From Pseudotabrizicola formosa (GTDB lineage Bacteria > Pseudomonadota > Alphaproteobacteria > Rhodobacterales > Rhodobacteraceae), in assembly GCF_002900965.1 (NCBI RefSeq), contig NZ_PJOM01000003.1:434001-498000 (forward strand): DNA of 64,000 nt, in the 5' to 3' direction. Below are positions 35,517 through 53,474 of this stretch, one piece after another (within the stretch, counting starts at the first letter, position 1; the number at the start of each line of letters is the position of its first letter). The position numbers and the translations under genes were made by a program. The notes below the pieces were generated by a model. The model was given only the letters and a program-made list of their open reading frames with translations, had not been told where the DNA came from and did no database searches.

Positions 35517-37343
35517 TCAGCCCTCCATCGCCTCCAGCTCATCGATAAAGCCCGCGATCATCGACAGGCCCTTGTCCCAGAATTTCGGATCCGAGGCATC
35601 CAGCCCGAAGGGAGCCAGCAACTCCTTGTGATGCTTCGACCCTCCGGCTTTCAGCATCTCGAAATATTTCGCCTCAAACTCCGGCAGGCCATCCTCGTAG
35701 GCCGCGTAAAGCGCATTGACCAGCCCATCGCCGAAGGCATAGGCATAAACGTAGAACGGCGAATGCACGAAATGCGGGATATAGGCCCAGAAGGTTTCAT
35801 AGCCGTCCATGAAATCAAAGGCATCACCCAGCGATTCCGCCTGCACGCTCATCCACAAGGCGTTGATGTCGTCCGGTGTCAGCTCGCCCTCGGCGCGCGC
35901 CGCGTGCAATTTGCACTCGAAGTCATAGAACGCAATCTGGCGGACAACCGTGTTGATCATATCTTCGACCTTGCCCGCCAGCAGAGTCTTGCGCTCGGCG
36001 GGGGTCTTCGCCTGATCCAGCAGCTTGCGGAAGGTCAGCATCTCGCCGAACACACTTGCCGTTTCGGCAAGCGTCAGCGGGGTCGATGACAAGAGCTCGC
36101 CTTGACCCGCCGCCAGGACCTGATGCACGCCATGCCCCAGTTCATGTGCCAGCGTCATCACGTCGCGCGGCTTGCCCAGATAATTCAGCATCACATAGGG
36201 ATGCACGGTCGACACTGTGGGATGCGCGAAGGCACCGGGCGCCTTGCCCGGCTTGACCCCGGCATCGATCCAGCCTTTGTCAAAAAACGGTCTGGCAATA
36301 TCTGCCATCTCCGGGGCAAAGCTGCCATAGGCGTCCAGCACCGTCTTGGTCGCTTCCTCCCAGCCGACCACACGCGGCGTTTCCAGTGCCAGTGGAGCGT
36401 TGCGGTCCCAGACCTGCAGCCGTTCCAGCCCCAGCCACTTCGCTTTCAAGCGGTAATAGCGGTGGCTCAGCTTCGGGTAGGCCGCAACCACCGCATTGCG
36501 CAGCGCCTCAACCACTTCCGGCTCGACGTGGTTCGACAGGTGCCGCCCGTGTTGCGGAGAAGGCATCTTGCGCCAGCGGTCGTGGATTTCCTTTTCTTTC
36601 GCCAGAGTGTTGTGAACCCGGGCAAACAGCTTGATGTTCTTGTCAAATACCACCGCCAAGGACCGTGCTGCGGCCTCGCGCTTGGTGCGGTCCGGGTCGG
36701 TCAGAAGGTTGAGCGTCGCCTCCAGGTTCAGCTCTTCCTCTTCCCCCTCGACCGTGAACATCAGACCGGCCATGGTCTCGTCGAACAGCTTGTTCCAGGC
36801 GCTGGCGCCCACCACGGATTCGTCGTGCAGGAATTTTTCCAACTCATCCGACAGCTGATGCGGCCGCATCGCGCGCATCCGGTCAAACACCGGCTTGTAG
36901 CGCGCCAGATCGACATTGGCAGAAATCAGGTCATCTAGGCGCGCGTCTTCCAGCCGGTTGAATTCGAGGCTGAAAAACACCAGCGGCGTGGTGAAGGTCG
37001 TGATCTTGTCCTGCACATCGGCCATGAACTTGGCGCGGTCGCTGTCCATGGTGTTCTGATAATAGCGCAGACCGGCAAAGGACATCAGCCGCCCGGCGGT
37101 GATATCGATCTGTTCATAAGCCCGCACACAATCCAGCAGGCCCTGCGCGTCCAGGTCAGCCAGCTTGCCCTCATAGGCGGCGGCAAACTCCGCACAGGCC
37201 GTCTCCAGCCAGCCCATATCTGCCGCAAACTCTTTGGACTCCGGCGAAGGATAAAGATCGCGCAAATCCCATTCGGGCAGGTTCCCAAACCCGCCAGAAG
37301 CTGCGTTGGCATCAAAAACGGGGCGGGGCATCGGCAGGGTCAT
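35517..37343 (-). CDS. pepF: M3 family oligoendopeptidase (PepF-like), internal start within the fused ORF
   Basis: Zinc metallopeptidase of 608 residues that cuts short peptides in the cytoplasm. The M3 active site is TLAHELGHGVHQ (HELGH, residues 400-404), with the third zinc ligand Glu expected in LAETASVFGEML. Helical substrate domain (YPSPESKEFAADMG onward) and typical total length (about 600) match PepF. The ATG at 37343 has an excellent AGGAAGG site with seven-base spacing, so independent translation is very likely even though the frame is also open into the upstream ligase. Confidence 0.9.
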   Translation of the reverse strand: MTLPMPRPVFDANAASGGFGNLPEWDLRDLYPSPESKEFAADMGWLETACAEFAAAYEGKLADLDAQGLLDCVRAYEQIDITAGRLMSFAGLRYYQNTMDSDRAKFMADVQDKITTFTTPLVFFSLEFNRLEDARLDDLISANVDLARYKPVFDRMRAMRPHQLSDELEKFLHDESVVGASAWNKLFDETMAGLMFTVEGEEEELNLEATLNLLTDPDRTKREAAARSLAVVFDKNIKLFARVHNTLAKEKEIHDRWRKMPSPQHGRHLSNHVEPEVVEALRNAVVAAYPKLSHRYYRLKAKWLGLERLQVWDRNAPLALETPRVVGWEEATKTVLDAYGSFAPEMADIARPFFDKGWIDAGVKPGKAPGAFAHPTVSTVHPYVMLNYLGKPRDVMTLAHELGHGVHQVLAAGQGELLSSTPLTLAETASVFGEMLTFRKLLDQAKTPAERKTLLAGKVEDMINTVVRQIAFYDFECKLHAARAEGELTPDDINALWMSVQAESLGDAFDFMDGYETFWAYIPHFVHSPFYVYAYAFGDGLVNALYAAYEDGLPEFEAKYFEMLKAGGSKHHKELLAPFGLDASDPKFWDKGLSMIAGFIDELEAMEG

Positions 37344-39197
37344 GGACCATCCTTCCTGAAAACTCTTTCTCTCAGATAGGGCCGCCGACACCTGAAAGAC
37401 AACCCACCGCCCATTTTCAGTCTTCAAATATCCTGTGGGTCCGGGGGGCGAAGCCCCCGTTTTTCCTTTATCGGCGGGCGAAGCCCCCGCTTTTCCTTTA
37501 TCGGCGGGCAAAGCCTCCGTTTTCCCTTTATCGGCGGGCGACGCCCCCGTTTGTCCTTTATCGGCGGGCAAAGCCCCTGTCTCTTTTTCTCCCGCCACCA
37601 GAAGCCCAGGCTCGGACACCTGCCGCAACATGTCGCGCAAGCCTTGCAGCGTGTCAATCTCTGCCACGCCCTTGTCCTTGCGCCAGCGCAGCATGCGCGG
37701 AAACCGCAAGGCGATACCGGATTTGTGGCGGGGGCTGGCCTGAATGCCTTCGAACCCGATTTCAAACACCAGCTCTGGCACCACACGGCGTACCGGGCCA
37801 AAGCGTTCCAGCGTGTGCTTGCCCACCCAGCGGGTGATTTCGGCAAATTCGGTATCGGTCAGGCCGGAATAGGCCTTGGTGAAAGGCACCAGATCATTGC
37901 CGTCACGCAGCGCAAAGGTGAAGTCGGTGAACAGGTTGGCCCGCCGCCCGTGGCCCGCCTGGGCATAGAGCATCACCGCATCAACGGTGAACGGGTCCAG
38001 CTTCCATTTCCACCAGTCGCCCCGCTTCCGCCCGGTGTGATAGGGCGACGACAACCGCTTGAGCATCAGCCCCTCGGCCATTCGGTCCCGCGCCTTTGCG
38101 CGAAGGGCGGTCAGGTCTGCCCAATCCCCTGACGCAACCGGAGAAGGCGAGAGCGGCAGGCCCGGCGGCAAGGCCGCAAGCAAGGCTTCCAGCCGCGCCC
38201 GGCGCTCTGATAGGGGCGCGTCGCGCAGGTCCGCGCCATCGGCTTCCAGCAGATCATAGGCCAGAAAATGCCCCGGTGTCTCGGCCAGCAGCTTTTTCGG
38301 CACGGTCTTGCGGCCAATGCGCTTTTGCAGCTCGGCAAAGGGCAGGGGGGCCGTGCCACCCCAAGCAACGATCTCGCCATCCAGCACCGTTCCGGGGGGC
38401 AGATGGTCTTGCAGCGGCGCAAATTCAGGAAAGCGGTCGGTGATCAGATCCTCGCCACGGCTCCAGATCGCAAAGGCCCCGGGCCGCGCGATGATTTGCC
38501 CCCGGATGCCATCCCATTTCCATTCGGCCAGCCAGTCGGTCGCCGGGCCCAGAGTGTCTGGCGCGGCCTCCAGCGGGCTGGCCAGCGCAAATGGGTAGGG
38601 CCGTGCTGCGCCATCTGATCCGCCCTCCTGCGTCAGATCGGCAAAGCGGGTGCGGGCGGGGTCCCAATCCCCCATCAGCCGGTGTGCCATCACCGCCTCT
38701 TCCACCCCCGTCGCCTGCGCCAGGGCCCGGGTCATCAACCCCCGGCTGACCCCCATGCGAAAGCCGCCGGTCAGCAGTTTGTTGAACAGGAACCGCTCAT
38801 CCGGCCCCAAAGCCGCCCAGGACGTGGTGACAAAGGCGCGGCGCTCGGCCTCTGGCCGTCCGGTCAGCGCAATCAGCGCGCGGAGGGTGCTGTCCAGCGA
38901 CGGGTCCGTTTCATGGGCCGGCAAAGGCAGCAGGCGGGCGATGGTTTCAGCAAGATCGCCGGCGATGGTGTAGGACTCTTCGAAGAGCCACAGCGGAACG
39001 CCTGCCTCTGCTGCCGCCCAGACGCGCAGTTCGGTGGCATTGACCGCCCGCTTCGGCCGACGGCCCGACAGAAGCGCAATGGTCCAGACCCGGTCGGCCT
39101 CGGGCGCGGTGCCGAAATAGCTGGCCAAGGCTGCGGTTTTTTCGCCGGTTTTGGTGGTGGCATCCAACGCGTTGAACAGGGCGGCGAAGCGTTTCAT
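35517..39197 (-). CDS. ATP-dependent DNA ligase with its frame running without a stop into an M3 oligoendopeptidase (1226-residue fused ORF)
   Basis: Residues 1-537 are a complete ATP-dependent DNA ligase of the exonuclease-associated type: N-terminal domain, adenylation motif EWKWDGIRG with Lys227, EIVAWGG, AEGLMLKRL, and an OB-fold with RVVPELVFEIGFEGIQ and RFPRMLRWRKDK. No stop follows. Instead residues about 540-585 are encoded by a 30-base tandem repeat (ten-residue units such as PADKGKTGAS), then about 30 residues of intergenic-looking sequence, then the peptidase from residue 619. Most likely the ligase lost its stop codon and the peptidase is still made from its own start at 37343; a true two-enzyme fusion is possible. 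The start overlaps the exonuclease stop by four bases. Confidence 0.75.
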   Translation of the reverse strand: MKRFAALFNALDATTKTGEKTAALASYFGTAPEADRVWTIALLSGRRPKRAVNATELRVWAAAEAGVPLWLFEESYTIAGDLAETIARLLPLPAHETDPSLDSTLRALIALTGRPEAERRAFVTTSWAALGPDERFLFNKLLTGGFRMGVSRGLMTRALAQATGVEEAVMAHRLMGDWDPARTRFADLTQEGGSDGAARPYPFALASPLEAAPDTLGPATDWLAEWKWDGIRGQIIARPGAFAIWSRGEDLITDRFPEFAPLQDHLPPGTVLDGEIVAWGGTAPLPFAELQKRIGRKTVPKKLLAETPGHFLAYDLLEADGADLRDAPLSERRARLEALLAALPPGLPLSPSPVASGDWADLTALRAKARDRMAEGLMLKRLSSPYHTGRKRGDWWKWKLDPFTVDAVMLYAQAGHGRRANLFTDFTFALRDGNDLVPFTKAYSGLTDTEFAEITRWVGKHTLERFGPVRRVVPELVFEIGFEGIQASPRHKSGIALRFPRMLRWRKDKGVAEIDTLQGLRDMLRQVSEPGLLVAGEKETGALPADKGQTGASPADKGKTEALPADKGKAGASPADKGKTGASPPGPTGYLKTENGRWVVFQVSAALSERKSFQEGWSMTLPMPRPVFDANAASGGFGNLPEWDLRDLYPSPESKEFAADMGWLETACAEFAAAYEGKLADLDAQGLLDCVRAYEQIDITAGRLMSFAGLRYYQNTMDSDRAKFMADVQDKITTFTTPLVFFSLEFNRLEDARLDDLISANVDLARYKPVFDRMRAMRPHQLSDELEKFLHDESVVGASAWNKLFDETMAGLMFTVEGEEEELNLEATLNLLTDPDRTKREAAARSLAVVFDKNIKLFARVHNTLAKEKEIHDRWRKMPSPQHGRHLSNHVEPEVVEALRNAVVAAYPKLSHRYYRLKAKWLGLERLQVWDRNAPLALETPRVVGWEEATKTVLDAYGSFAPEMADIARPFFDKGWIDAGVKPGKAPGAFAHPTVSTVHPYVMLNYLGKPRDVMTLAHELGHGVHQVLAAGQGELLSSTPLTLAETASVFGEMLTFRKLLDQAKTPAERKTLLAGKVEDMINTVVRQIAFYDFECKLHAARAEGELTPDDINALWMSVQAESLGDAFDFMDGYETFWAYIPHFVHSPFYVYAYAFGDGLVNALYAAYEDGLPEFEAKYFEMLKAGGSKHHKELLAPFGLDASDPKFWDKGLSMIAGFIDELEAMEG
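37442..37591. repeat. 30-base tandem repeat, about five copies, between ligase and peptidase
   Basis: The unit reads roughly CGGCGGGCGAAGCCCCCGCT plus TTTCCTTTAT, repeated head to tail at 37442, 37472, 37502, 37532 and 37562, the last one decayed. Each copy holds a GGGC-GAA-GCCC hairpin. Because 30 is a multiple of three, copy number changes keep the frame open on the minus strand, giving ten-residue repeats. Copies differ by a few substitutions, so the array is not brand new. It looks like a family of intergenic GC-hairpin repeats that has been absorbed into a coding frame. Confidence 0.9.
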
Positions 39198-40246
39198 GCT
39201 GTGTCCGCCCCCGTGTCTGACCCGGTGTCCGGCCCGGTGTCTGTGGCGGTGTCGGTATCGGCCTCATCGCCGCCAAATTCGGTCTGAACGATCCCGGCCT
39301 CATAGCCCTGTTCCTCCAGCCAACGGCGGAAGGGCGTGGTGTAGCCATGGGTGACAAAGACCCGTTCCGCCCCGGTGGCGCGGATCGCCGTGTTCAGGCC
39401 AGGCCAGTCGGCGTGGTCCGAAATGACAAAGCCGGTGCCCAAACCCCGGCGGCGGCGGATGCCGCGCAGCGCCATCCAGCCGCTGGCAAAGGCCTCGGCC
39501 GTTGGGCCAAAGCGTCGCGCCCAAGACGTGCCAAGCGCCGATGGGGGGGCGATGACCAATGCGCCGGGATGAGATTTCGCATCAATCCCGGGTGTGACGC
39601 GAAGTGTGGCGGGAAGGGGATAGCCCTGATCGCGCAGGATGCGCGTGGTTTCCTCGACTGCGCCATGGGTCAGGATCGGCCCGGCATCCGGCAATAATGT
39701 CATCAACCGCTGCGCCTTGCCCAGACCGTAAGCCGCCAAGATCGAAACCCGCCCCTGGGCCGCATTGGCCTGCCACCAGGCGGCAAGCTGATCGGCAATC
39801 ACATGTTGCGGCTGCCAGCGAAACAATGGCAGCCCGAAGGTGCATTCGGTGATGAACGTATGGCAGGGCACTGGCACGAATGCCTCGGACAACCCGTCAT
39901 CCTCGACCTTGTAATCGCCCGAGACGACCCAGACCTCACCACCGCGCTCCACCCGGATCTGCGCCGATCCAGGCACATGGCCGGCAGGGTGAAAGCTGAC
40001 CTTGACCCCACCGACCTGCCGGGTTTCGCCATAGGCGATGCCCTCGGCATGTATATCCCCCAACCGGTGCCGCATGACCGGCAGCGCAGCATGCGTGCAC
40101 AGATAGTGGCCGTGTCCCCATCGGGCGTGGTCGCTGTGGCCATGGGTGATAAGCGCCCGGTCTACGGGACGCCAGGGGTCGATGTAGAACCCGCCATCGG
40201 CGCAATAGATGCCGCGTTCGCTAAAACTGAGCAATTCTGAGGACAT
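39194..40246 (-). CDS. Ligase-associated DNA exonuclease (metallo-beta-lactamase fold)
   Basis: MBL/beta-CASP-like nuclease of 350 residues. The metal motif THGHSDHARWG (HxHxDH) is at residues about 34-44, with HPAGHVPGSAQI, SGDYK and SDHADWPGL following. This type of nuclease is encoded together with the ATP-dependent ligase, and in many genomes with a DEXH helicase and the phosphoesterase PdeM, as a DNA-repair set; neither partner is nearby here. The last 23 residues are Asp/Thr-rich with repeated DT pairs, encoded by a decayed 12-base repeat, and are probably disordered. The stop overlaps the ligase ATG (ATGA). Confidence 0.88.
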   Translation of the reverse strand: MSSELLSFSERGIYCADGGFYIDPWRPVDRALITHGHSDHARWGHGHYLCTHAALPVMRHRLGDIHAEGIAYGETRQVGGVKVSFHPAGHVPGSAQIRVERGGEVWVVSGDYKVEDDGLSEAFVPVPCHTFITECTFGLPLFRWQPQHVIADQLAAWWQANAAQGRVSILAAYGLGKAQRLMTLLPDAGPILTHGAVEETTRILRDQGYPLPATLRVTPGIDAKSHPGALVIAPPSALGTSWARRFGPTAEAFASGWMALRGIRRRRGLGTGFVISDHADWPGLNTAIRATGAERVFVTHGYTTPFRRWLEEQGYEAGIVQTEFGGDEADTDTATDTGPDTGSDTGADTA

Positions 40247-51632: not shown

Positions 51633-52387
51633 CATGCCAGCATGGCCGCCGCAGTGGCCAGTGCCGCCAGATGGGCAAGCTGTTGGCTTGCTCCAAGAAT
51701 ATCCCCGGTTTGCCCCCCGATCCGCGCCTGCGCCAGCACGGCAACCATCAGAGAGGCAACCGCTGCGGCCCCGATCATCCCCCCGGCCACCAGCCCCAGC
51801 GGCCCTGCAATCCCCATCGCCACCGCCACCGCGCACAGTGCCGCCAGCCGCGATGGCCGCCCCACACTGCGCGACAAGCCGTCCGCCCGTGCATGGGGCA
51901 GGGCCGCCATGATGACTGCCATAGGGGCACGGGAGATCACCGCCGCCGCCACAATCGCCCCATAGGCTTCGGCGGTCAGCAAGGCCCCAAGCGCCGACCA
52001 GGATGCCAGTGTCACCAGCAGAAGCGCCAGCGTGCCATAGCTGCCGATCTGGCTGTCTTTCATGATGCTCAACCGTCGTTCGCGCGTCCAACCGCCGAAC
52101 AGCCCGTCGGCGGTATCCGCCAGCCCGTCTTCGTGCAGCGCACCCGTCGCCATGGCCCCCACCGCCAGCACCAGCGCCGCCGCCAGCCCGACAGGCAGGC
52201 CGACCGCCATCGCGCCCCAGCCGGCGGCCATCGCCAGCGCGCCCACCACCAGCCCGACCAGCGGCCAGGCCCAGCAGGCCGCGGCTCTGTGGTGGCGGGT
52301 CTGTGGCAAGGGCAGGCGGCTGAGCAGGCCGAAGGCCGAAGCCAGGTCGGCCAGGAGCCAGACAGGTCTGTCGCGTTCGGTGGTCAC
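51632..52387 (-). CDS. cobS: Adenosylcobinamide-GDP ribazoletransferase
   Basis: Membrane enzyme (about 251 residues) that joins adenosylcobinamide-GDP with alpha-ribazole in the last part of cobalamin synthesis. It is very hydrophobic with five or more spans, and the Mg-binding motif [14 protein letters not shown] is clear, as is [14 protein letters not shown]. The start is the GTG at 52387 with an AAGGGACAG site; extending upstream would run into the divergent cobT region. It is divergent from cobT with a 79-base spacer, so the pair shares a control region. Confidence 0.9.
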
Positions 52388-52466
52388 CCTGTCCCTTCCC
52401 GGCTGGAATCTTGTTGCGTCTGTCTGTAGCCAAGGGCTTAGCCCCTTGCAACGCAGGACCCTGTCC

Positions 52467-53474
52467 ATGTTCACCTCGCCTGTCTGCTTTCGCGCCGCAC
52501 TGGCCGCGCAACCCGGCACCGACACATCCGCCAGTGCTGCGGCGTCAGCCCGCAATGGCCAGCTGACCAAACCGCCCGGCGCGTTGGGACGGCTGGAAGA
52601 TCTGGCGATCTGGCTGGCCGGATGGCAGGGGCGCGAGATGCCAAGCGCCGATGCGCCACAGGTGGTGATCTTTGCTGGCAATCACGGCGTCGCCGCGCGT
52701 GGCGTGTCTGCCTTTCCGGCCGAGGTGACGGCGCAGATGGTTGCGAATTTCCGGCATGGCGGCGCAGCCATCAACCAATTGTCGAAAGCCTTCGGCGCAG
52801 CGATGACCGTTCATGCCCTTGACCTTGATCACCCCACCGCCGATTTCACCCAAGGCCCGGCGATGACCGAGACAGAGGTGATGACAGCCTTGACGATCGG
52901 TTGGGACGCGGTTGACCCAAAGGCCGACCTGCTGGTGACCGGCGAGATGGGCATCGGCAACACCACCTCTGCTGCCGCTATCGCGGCGGCTCTGCTGGGC
53001 GGTGCGGTCGAAGACTGGGTGGGGCGCGGCACGGGCGTGGATGACCATGGCCTTGCCCGCAAGGCCGCGGCTGTCCGCGCGGGGCTTGCCACCCATGCGG
53101 CGCTGCTGTCAGATCCGTTGCAGGTGTTGCGCTGCCTTGGCGGGCGCGAGATTGCCGCCATGGCCGGGGCCATCGCCCGCGCTCGGGCTGAGCGCATTGC
53201 GGTGGTGCTGGACGGTTTCATCTGCTGCGCCGCCGCCTTAGTGCTGCAACAGACGCAGCCCGGTGCGCTCGATCATTGCCTTGCCGGCCATGTCAGCGCC
53301 GACGTAGGCCATGGTCGCCTGTTGGCCGCACTCGACAAGAAGCCGCTGCTTGACCTTGGTCTGCGGCTTGGCGAGGGCTCGGGCGCGGCACTGGCCTTGG
53401 GGATCGTTAAGGGGGCTGTCGCCTGCCATTCGGGAATGGCGACCTTTGCCGAAGCCGGGGTCAGCGGGGCCTGA
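52467..53474 (+). CDS. cobT: Nicotinate-nucleotide--dimethylbenzimidazole phosphoribosyltransferase
   Basis: Cytoplasmic enzyme of 335 residues that makes alpha-ribazole phosphate, the lower ligand of cobalamin. Motifs include [21 protein letters not shown] at the start, [28 protein letters not shown] and the catalytic [16 protein letters not shown] region near the end. It supplies the substrate for CobS. The ATG at 52467 is the first start that keeps the conserved N-terminus. Confidence 0.93.

Follow-up and report, generated by a model that had tools for sequence, protein, structure and literature searches.

Changes of reading frame that occur in a single genome have been surveyed as singleton frame transitions, some of which touch adjacent genes (PMC3711429), and the locus described here is like them in that a single genome shows a frame change, which lies close to a gene's 3' end. 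In the portion of that survey used here, the genes are read in two frames, whereas the present locus is one continuous frame over two complete enzymes. A second described process is C-terminal extension by loss of the stop codon, in which, much as proposed here, a frameshift ahead of the stop adds former 3' noncoding sequence to the protein; 45 of 54 such extension cases in yeast were frameshifts (PMC4494051). The portion of that study used here differs in that it concerns yeast and fly and gives short additions in part of its table, and its sole putative gene fusion was discredited as an assembly error. The third comparison is with Rickettsia palindromic elements and ERIC, hairpin repeats that are scattered through genomes and, like the repeat at this locus, can be read within a conserved protein (PMC2229807). 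Those elements are about 100 to 200 bp long, whereas the present one is about 35 bp long and lies at a gene end, and a stop codon inside the repeat, as seen in several relatives here, is absent from the part of that account used here. By analogy, the case resembles known singleton frame transitions, stop-loss C-terminal extensions, and in-frame small-repeat fusions.

Judged by title, the open-access literature yielded no description of a pairing between a DNA ligase and an oligoendopeptidase and nothing on topic for this ligase family and its associated exonuclease. Titles likewise gave nothing on the present hairpin or array repeats among the best 10 of 302 matches for Rhodobacteraceae repeats and nothing on topic among the best 6 of 7 for M3 peptidase promoters.

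A continuous frame over two enzymes

The locus lies in a window of 64,000 nucleotides from Pseudotabrizicola formosa, the whole stretch of DNA that was analyzed, within a genome of 3,702,758 bases on 14 contigs, one of which is 1,520,968 bases long. One uninterrupted frame of 1226 codons runs on the minus strand from an ATG at 39197 to a stop codon ending at 35517. The features of the region, numbered within the window, are as follows.

39194..40246, minus strand: ligase-associated DNA damage response exonuclease, the upstream neighbor (TIGR04122; 4-base overlap with the ligase start)
37620..39197, minus strand: ATP-dependent DNA ligase, conserved part, residues 1 to 526 (TIGR04120, PRK09247, and matches in the genus)
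37344..37619, minus strand: joining segment, residues 527 to 618 (limits of ligase homology; substitutions spread evenly across codon positions of the last 93 nt ahead of the peptidase ATG)
37442..37577, minus strand: array of 4.5 tandem 30-bp units, corresponding to residues about 541 to 586, ADKGKTGASP-like (Tandem Repeats Finder)
37424..37458, minus strand: hairpin repeat element, with the ligase stop of the relatives here out of frame (comparison with genus relatives)
37443..37448, minus strand: C run of six bases, read CCC CCC (alignment; five bases in eight relatives)
37424..37426, minus strand: TGA at the place of the relatives' ligase stop, in the +1 frame here (alignment)
37374..37402, minus strand: peptidase promoter-like site TTGTCT-17-CTATCT, 59 bp 5' of the ATG (pattern in upstream regions)
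37351..37357, minus strand: AGGAAGG, a Shine-Dalgarno-like sequence for the peptidase (4 of 8 aligned relatives share GGAAGG)
35517..37343, minus strand: M3 family oligoendopeptidase, residues 619 to 1226, with HELGH at 1018 (TIGR02290, Pfam M3 domains)

The 1226-codon open reading frame is real, which confirms the observation with which an earlier note on this DNA began. That note had described a complete ATP-dependent DNA ligase and a complete M3 peptidase in one frame, and both families were matched over their full domains. Its description of the joining segment as repeat derived or intergenic-like was borne out by the 30-bp array, the hairpin repeat, and the promoter-like and ribosome sites of the peptidase, and the AGGAAGG and the ATG at 37343 that it said the peptidase retained were both located, the Shine-Dalgarno-like sequence at 37357 to 37351.

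The ligase belongs by sequence to the cisplatin damage response ATP-dependent DNA ligase family, and its ligase activity and role in the DNA damage response are predicted from the family name. It matched TIGR04120 with 611 bits (cutoff, 400) over residues 2 to 524 and all of the model (1 to 526 of 526), and the match to PRK09247 covered residues 1 to 526. The adenylation motif KxDG is present as KWDG at residue 227, and Lys227 was invariant in 34 aligned ligases. The peptidase matched TIGR02290 with 642 bits (cutoff, 562) over residues 642 to 1224, and its zinc motif HExxH is HELGH, beginning at residue 1018. Pfam placed three ligase domains and two M3 domains in the fused frame. The exonuclease upstream, whose stop codon overlaps the start of the ligase by four bases, matched TIGR04122 with 468 bits (cutoff, 325); a counterpart occupies the same position in two relatives (G011 and G002) and lies 5' of the ligase in all 12 loci fetched from the family.

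Ligase matches 74 to 93% identical were found in 14 of 15 same-genus genomes, in two pieces in G004 and partial in G009 and G010; G008 was the only one of the 15 in which the ligase was not found. The matches in G004 (L022) and G009 (L015) are split over two frames, which reflects either real breaks or errors in draft assemblies.

Both enzymes were also compared with regard to replacements found in one genome only, at sites invariant in the other five. For the ligase, there were 4 such replacements here versus 0, 6, and 10 in G011, G002, and G007, and for the peptidase, there were 6 here versus 4, 1, and 11. These counts gave no sign of decay after fusion. By these comparisons, the ligase and the peptidase are both under ordinary constraint.

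The junction in related genomes

The junction was compared across the 15 same-genus genomes, taken as one genome per species, and could be read in 13. The two genes are adjacent in all 13, and the ligase stops before the peptidase in every one, with gaps of 77 to 216 bases between the ligase stop and the peptidase. The two genes are in different frames in 8 of these relatives and in the same frame with an intervening stop in the other 5. A fourteenth genome with the ligase (G012) shows the ligase stop and has no peptidase in the fetched stretch, which ends with the contig. The same arrangement was found among 80 named peptidase loci, in which a ligase lies at most 4 kb upstream on the same strand in 37 and stops before the peptidase in 37 of 37; the gaps measure 51 to 227 bases in 31 of these loci and 923 to 1160 bases in 6. 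Six of the 37 look to have been counted already within the genus set, and the other 43 loci have no ligase in that 4 kb, partly because contigs end there.

A search of the family found the ligase in 189 of 394 genomes. Among the matches listed, a frame long enough for both enzymes occurs only here (1248 codons) and in G130 (1416 codons). The latter was rejected as an independent fusion since its surplus length sits upstream of the ligase. Long ligase frames elsewhere in the family (up to 1416 codons, among the matches listed) were considered as independent fusions at 12 fetched loci, a selection from the listed matches with long frames, and rejected there; in all 12, the ligase stop lies 20 to 49 codons past residue 505, and 261 to 880 codons of open frame precede the ligase.

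A conserved ligase-peptidase fusion family is thus unsupported, with the fusion in 0 of 13 genus genomes and 0 of 37 named loci. The earlier note had proposed comparing relatives for a stop codon after the ligase, and such a stop was found in all 13 of the genus genomes with a readable junction and in all 37 of the named loci with both genes within 4 kb. It had also held that the fusion would fall if relatives always kept the genes apart and this frame proved to be an assembly error; the genes are indeed separate in the relatives (5 of 13 share a frame, with a stop between), but an assembly error was not demonstrated. The suggestion that the pairing is meaningful in itself was not supported, because no relative examined has the fusion and a single base, in the C run of a repeat element, accounts for the difference.

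The joint, its promoter-like site, and the one-base difference

Over the joining stretch (37619 to 37343), the frame in use contains no stops, one other frame contains a single TGA, and the third contains six. Gly, Ala, Lys, Ser, and Pro abound in its translation, and in relatives the corresponding sequence lies mostly beyond the ligase stop or within the repeat. The 93 bases before the peptidase ATG are alike in five species, and their substitutions are distributed 81:62:75 over codon positions versus 56:71:260 in the initial 240 bases of the peptidase gene (five sequences); leaving this genome out gives 39:34:47 and 34:41:154, and all of these figures are sums over pairs and hence not independent. 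Translations of the 93-base stretch are also alike in the five species, and protein-level conservation was considered and rejected on account of the even distribution over codon positions. By this measure the stretch evolves like noncoding DNA, and its likeness among species looks like DNA conservation around a promoter.

The conserved sequence before the peptidase does look like a promoter. The pattern TTGNNN-17-CTANN(T/G), which was defined after inspection of the genus junction sequences, occurs in 46 of 63 distinct upstream regions; 100 rounds of shuffling gave on average 0.3 such regions and never more than 2 of 63. The 63 regions are what remained of 95 loci after the removal of 6 duplicates and of 26 loci with an alignment that fell short of residue 1 or with too little upstream sequence. 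In 43 of the 46, the pattern lies 54 to 61 bases 5' of the ATG; 17 of the 63 regions lack it. This genome has kept the site (37402 to 37374), which a generic sigma-70 scan did not report. A stand-alone peptidase, which the earlier note had thought possible, gains support because this conserved promoter-like site lies within what had been called the linker, and the peptidase's own start is intact.

Terminator-like sites in the coding direction were absent from 37200 to 37800, and all seven that were found face the opposite way. On the plus strand from 37442 to 37581, the units of the array resemble intrinsic terminators (7 sites, some overlapping, versus 1.0 in shuffles), each a hairpin followed by a T-rich tail that points away from the ligase-peptidase direction. 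With no terminator in the coding direction, one transcript spanning both genes would be expected and, from it, a protein of about 136 kDa, together with free peptidase from its own start. Two matches to RNA families in the region, both less than half of the curated cutoffs, were taken as chance, and the RNA folding of the joint was not unusual (z score of -1.0).

In 7 of 14 genus relatives (G011, G002, G004, G001, G006, G005, and G014), the ligase frame terminates within a copy of a hairpin repeat, whose typical form is GGGGGCTTTGCCCCCGGACCCCCAGGATATTT, with TGA, TAA, or TAG spanning its end. G003 and G015 carry a divergent version, G007 has the repeat with the ligase stop preceding it, and in the remaining four the ligase ends without a repeat. 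The repeat also occurs elsewhere, with 7 copies at up to three mismatches, and its 18-base core was found 17 times, counting the copy at the ligase, when two mismatches were allowed; an exact 17-base core is present in 15 of 16 genus genomes (this one among them, G013 not). Reversed-pattern controls gave 0 in each of these searches. The exact core occurs 11 times in this genome. The repeat is scattered over these genomes, and any mobility is putative.

The C run of the hairpin at the ligase end has six bases here versus five in 8 of 8 aligned relatives (alignment A1). Fourteen other hairpin copies in this genome fit the stem pattern, 12 with five Cs and 2 with six; both of the six-C stems carry a matching six-G arm, and the combination of five Gs with six Cs is found only in the ligase copy. 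Because the run is one base longer, the TGA at 37426 to 37424 falls in the +1 frame. The relatives' genes are separate and a frame-changing indel precedes the stop, which is the pattern of an indel-made fusion of adjacent genes. The array next to the hairpin (37442 to 37577, 4.5 copies) had a score of 216, the highest of the 13 Tandem Repeats Finder rows for the window; it lengthens the frame but preserves its phase. Within the genome, none of 23 other matches to a 216-base query extends into its first 138 bases, which comprise most of the array. Units like those of the array are present, judged by eye, in G002 and G007.

The frame of the peptidase is open upstream of its start for 40 to 63 codons in five relatives (G011, G002, G007, G005, and G004), so the open junction by itself is, on this comparison, unremarkable. 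In G014, G006, and G001, the open stretch is only 27, 17, and 3 codons long. Since the newly reached frame is already open in the nearest species, one base would suffice to turn an arrangement such as that in G011 into the joined genes. This one-step route would be valid for some relatives only, because the ligase of G007 stops before the repeat and G001, G006, and G014 have short open stretches.

Similar ligase tails (PPDPQDI, PPAPPEDI) recur across several genera, in L004, L005, L006, L008, L009, L010, L012, L013, and L022, where a DNA repeat holds the stop, in divergent form in L008 and L010. A similar tail was seen, from protein sequence only, in L070, L091, L169, and L180.

Origin of the fused frame

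We consider it quite probable, from the sequence comparisons, that two separate neighboring genes were merged into one frame in this genome by a one-base difference in length, giving an incidental fusion together with a stand-alone peptidase. The fusion is known from a single assembly, and the fusion protein is predicted from sequence. The ancestral state would have been a ligase and, after it, an M3 peptidase that had a promoter-like site and start of its own, the ligase stop being held by a hairpin repeat as in half of the genus relatives. In this genome the 30-bp unit before the hairpin is present 4.5 times in frame. An insertion of one base, taking the C run from five to six, would have thrown the stop into the +1 frame, and the region upstream of the peptidase, to judge from the nearest species, would already have been open in the frame thus reached. 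Ribosomes on the ligase message would then continue to a protein of 1226 residues and about 136 kDa with a joint rich in Gly, Ala, Lys, Ser, and Pro, while the 68-kDa peptidase would still be made from its own promoter and start. Some ligase-only protein may come from clipping in the joint or from ribosomes that slip by +1 at CCC-CCC and so reach the old TGA. Most likely, the fusion arose recently and by accident in a single species and is no designed two-enzyme protein, and it is probably tolerated, not selected for.

An unlikely alternative is that the extra C is a sequencing or assembly error and that the true genome has a stop like that of the relatives and two separate genes, given that the discrepancy amounts to a single base in a homopolymer adjoining a tandem array and is confined to one genome. 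Illumina sequencing is not prone to indels in six-base runs. P. formosa XJSP, whose published genome figures match those of the present genome, is a lake water isolate assigned to the family Paracoccaceae and was sequenced by Illumina HiSeq at about 300x and assembled with Velvet, according to the part of the report used here (PMC9698765), and an indel error is unlikely for that reason. The published precedents pull both ways: singleton frameshifts validated by BLASTp were generally expected to be sequencing errors rather than genuine indels, yet the same authors speculated that those near the 3' end are more often true indels (PMC3711429), and the study in which a putative yeast fusion turned out to be an assembly error doubts fusions known from single assemblies (PMC4494051). 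Frame integrity within the window also speaks against an error. Among 48 frames conserved between G011 and G002 and picked blind to this genome, 5 had no match and lie at or past the window end, and 37 of the remaining 43 are, by the criterion applied, intact here, including both of the joined genes; inside these 37 frames, there are 17 other G or C runs of six or more. The six that are not intact comprise four that differ at the upstream end of the stop-to-stop frame, one that differs at its downstream end, and one, antisense to another gene, that is split.

That the product is mostly ligase with a long tail, clipping in the joint or +1 slippage at CCC-CCC restoring two ordinary enzymes, seems to us very unlikely. 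The run is read CCC CCC GGA with the TGA ahead in the +1 frame, and the joint has the Gly/Ala/Lys/Ser/Pro-rich composition described above. In the portion of the work on Escherichia coli used here, CCC CCC is a known slippery proline context, with +1 shifts on CCC-C of up to 1% when it is placed at the second codon, where shifting is easiest (PMC4519876). Given this slippery context, the old stop may still be reached by a small fraction of ribosomes, but these published rates are low even at that most favorable position, so slippage alone could not yield the main product. As for a programmed +1 frameshift, the slippery site is not conserved, the six-C run being found here only among nine aligned genomes.

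It is also very improbable, in our view, that the hairpin repeat acts as a movable gene end that donates a stop, grows by in-frame units, and through C-run slippage switches a neighboring pair of genes from separate to fused products and back, here caught in the fused state (a chimera plus free peptidase) and possibly varying between cells or strains. Least credible is a selected bifunctional enzyme in which the peptidase is tethered to the ligase, for example, for turnover of repair proteins: both domains are intact and constrained, the genes are adjacent in many genomes of the family, and the in-frame repeat units would make a plausible flexible linker, but the fusion occurs in no relative examined (in the family search, among the matches listed), the peptidase has its own conserved promoter-like site, and the stretch before it lacks coding constraint. 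We know of no functional link between M3 oligoendopeptidases and DNA ligation.

Under the merger of neighboring genes by one base, which we prefer, the locus would be a clean example of the birth of a gene fusion, in which a repeat holding the stop and an open downstream region allowed a single base to join two complete enzymes and left the promoter-like site of the second gene untouched. Automatic annotation may show one protein of 1226 residues here and mask the separate peptidase, and a working partnership between ligase and peptidase should not be inferred from the fused frame.

The frame comparison within the window also drew attention to a CobT-like gene (52041 to 53474, plus strand), for which the stop-to-stop frame is open far upstream in this genome and is divided over two or three frames in two relatives. 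This opening is probably open noncoding sequence before the true start.
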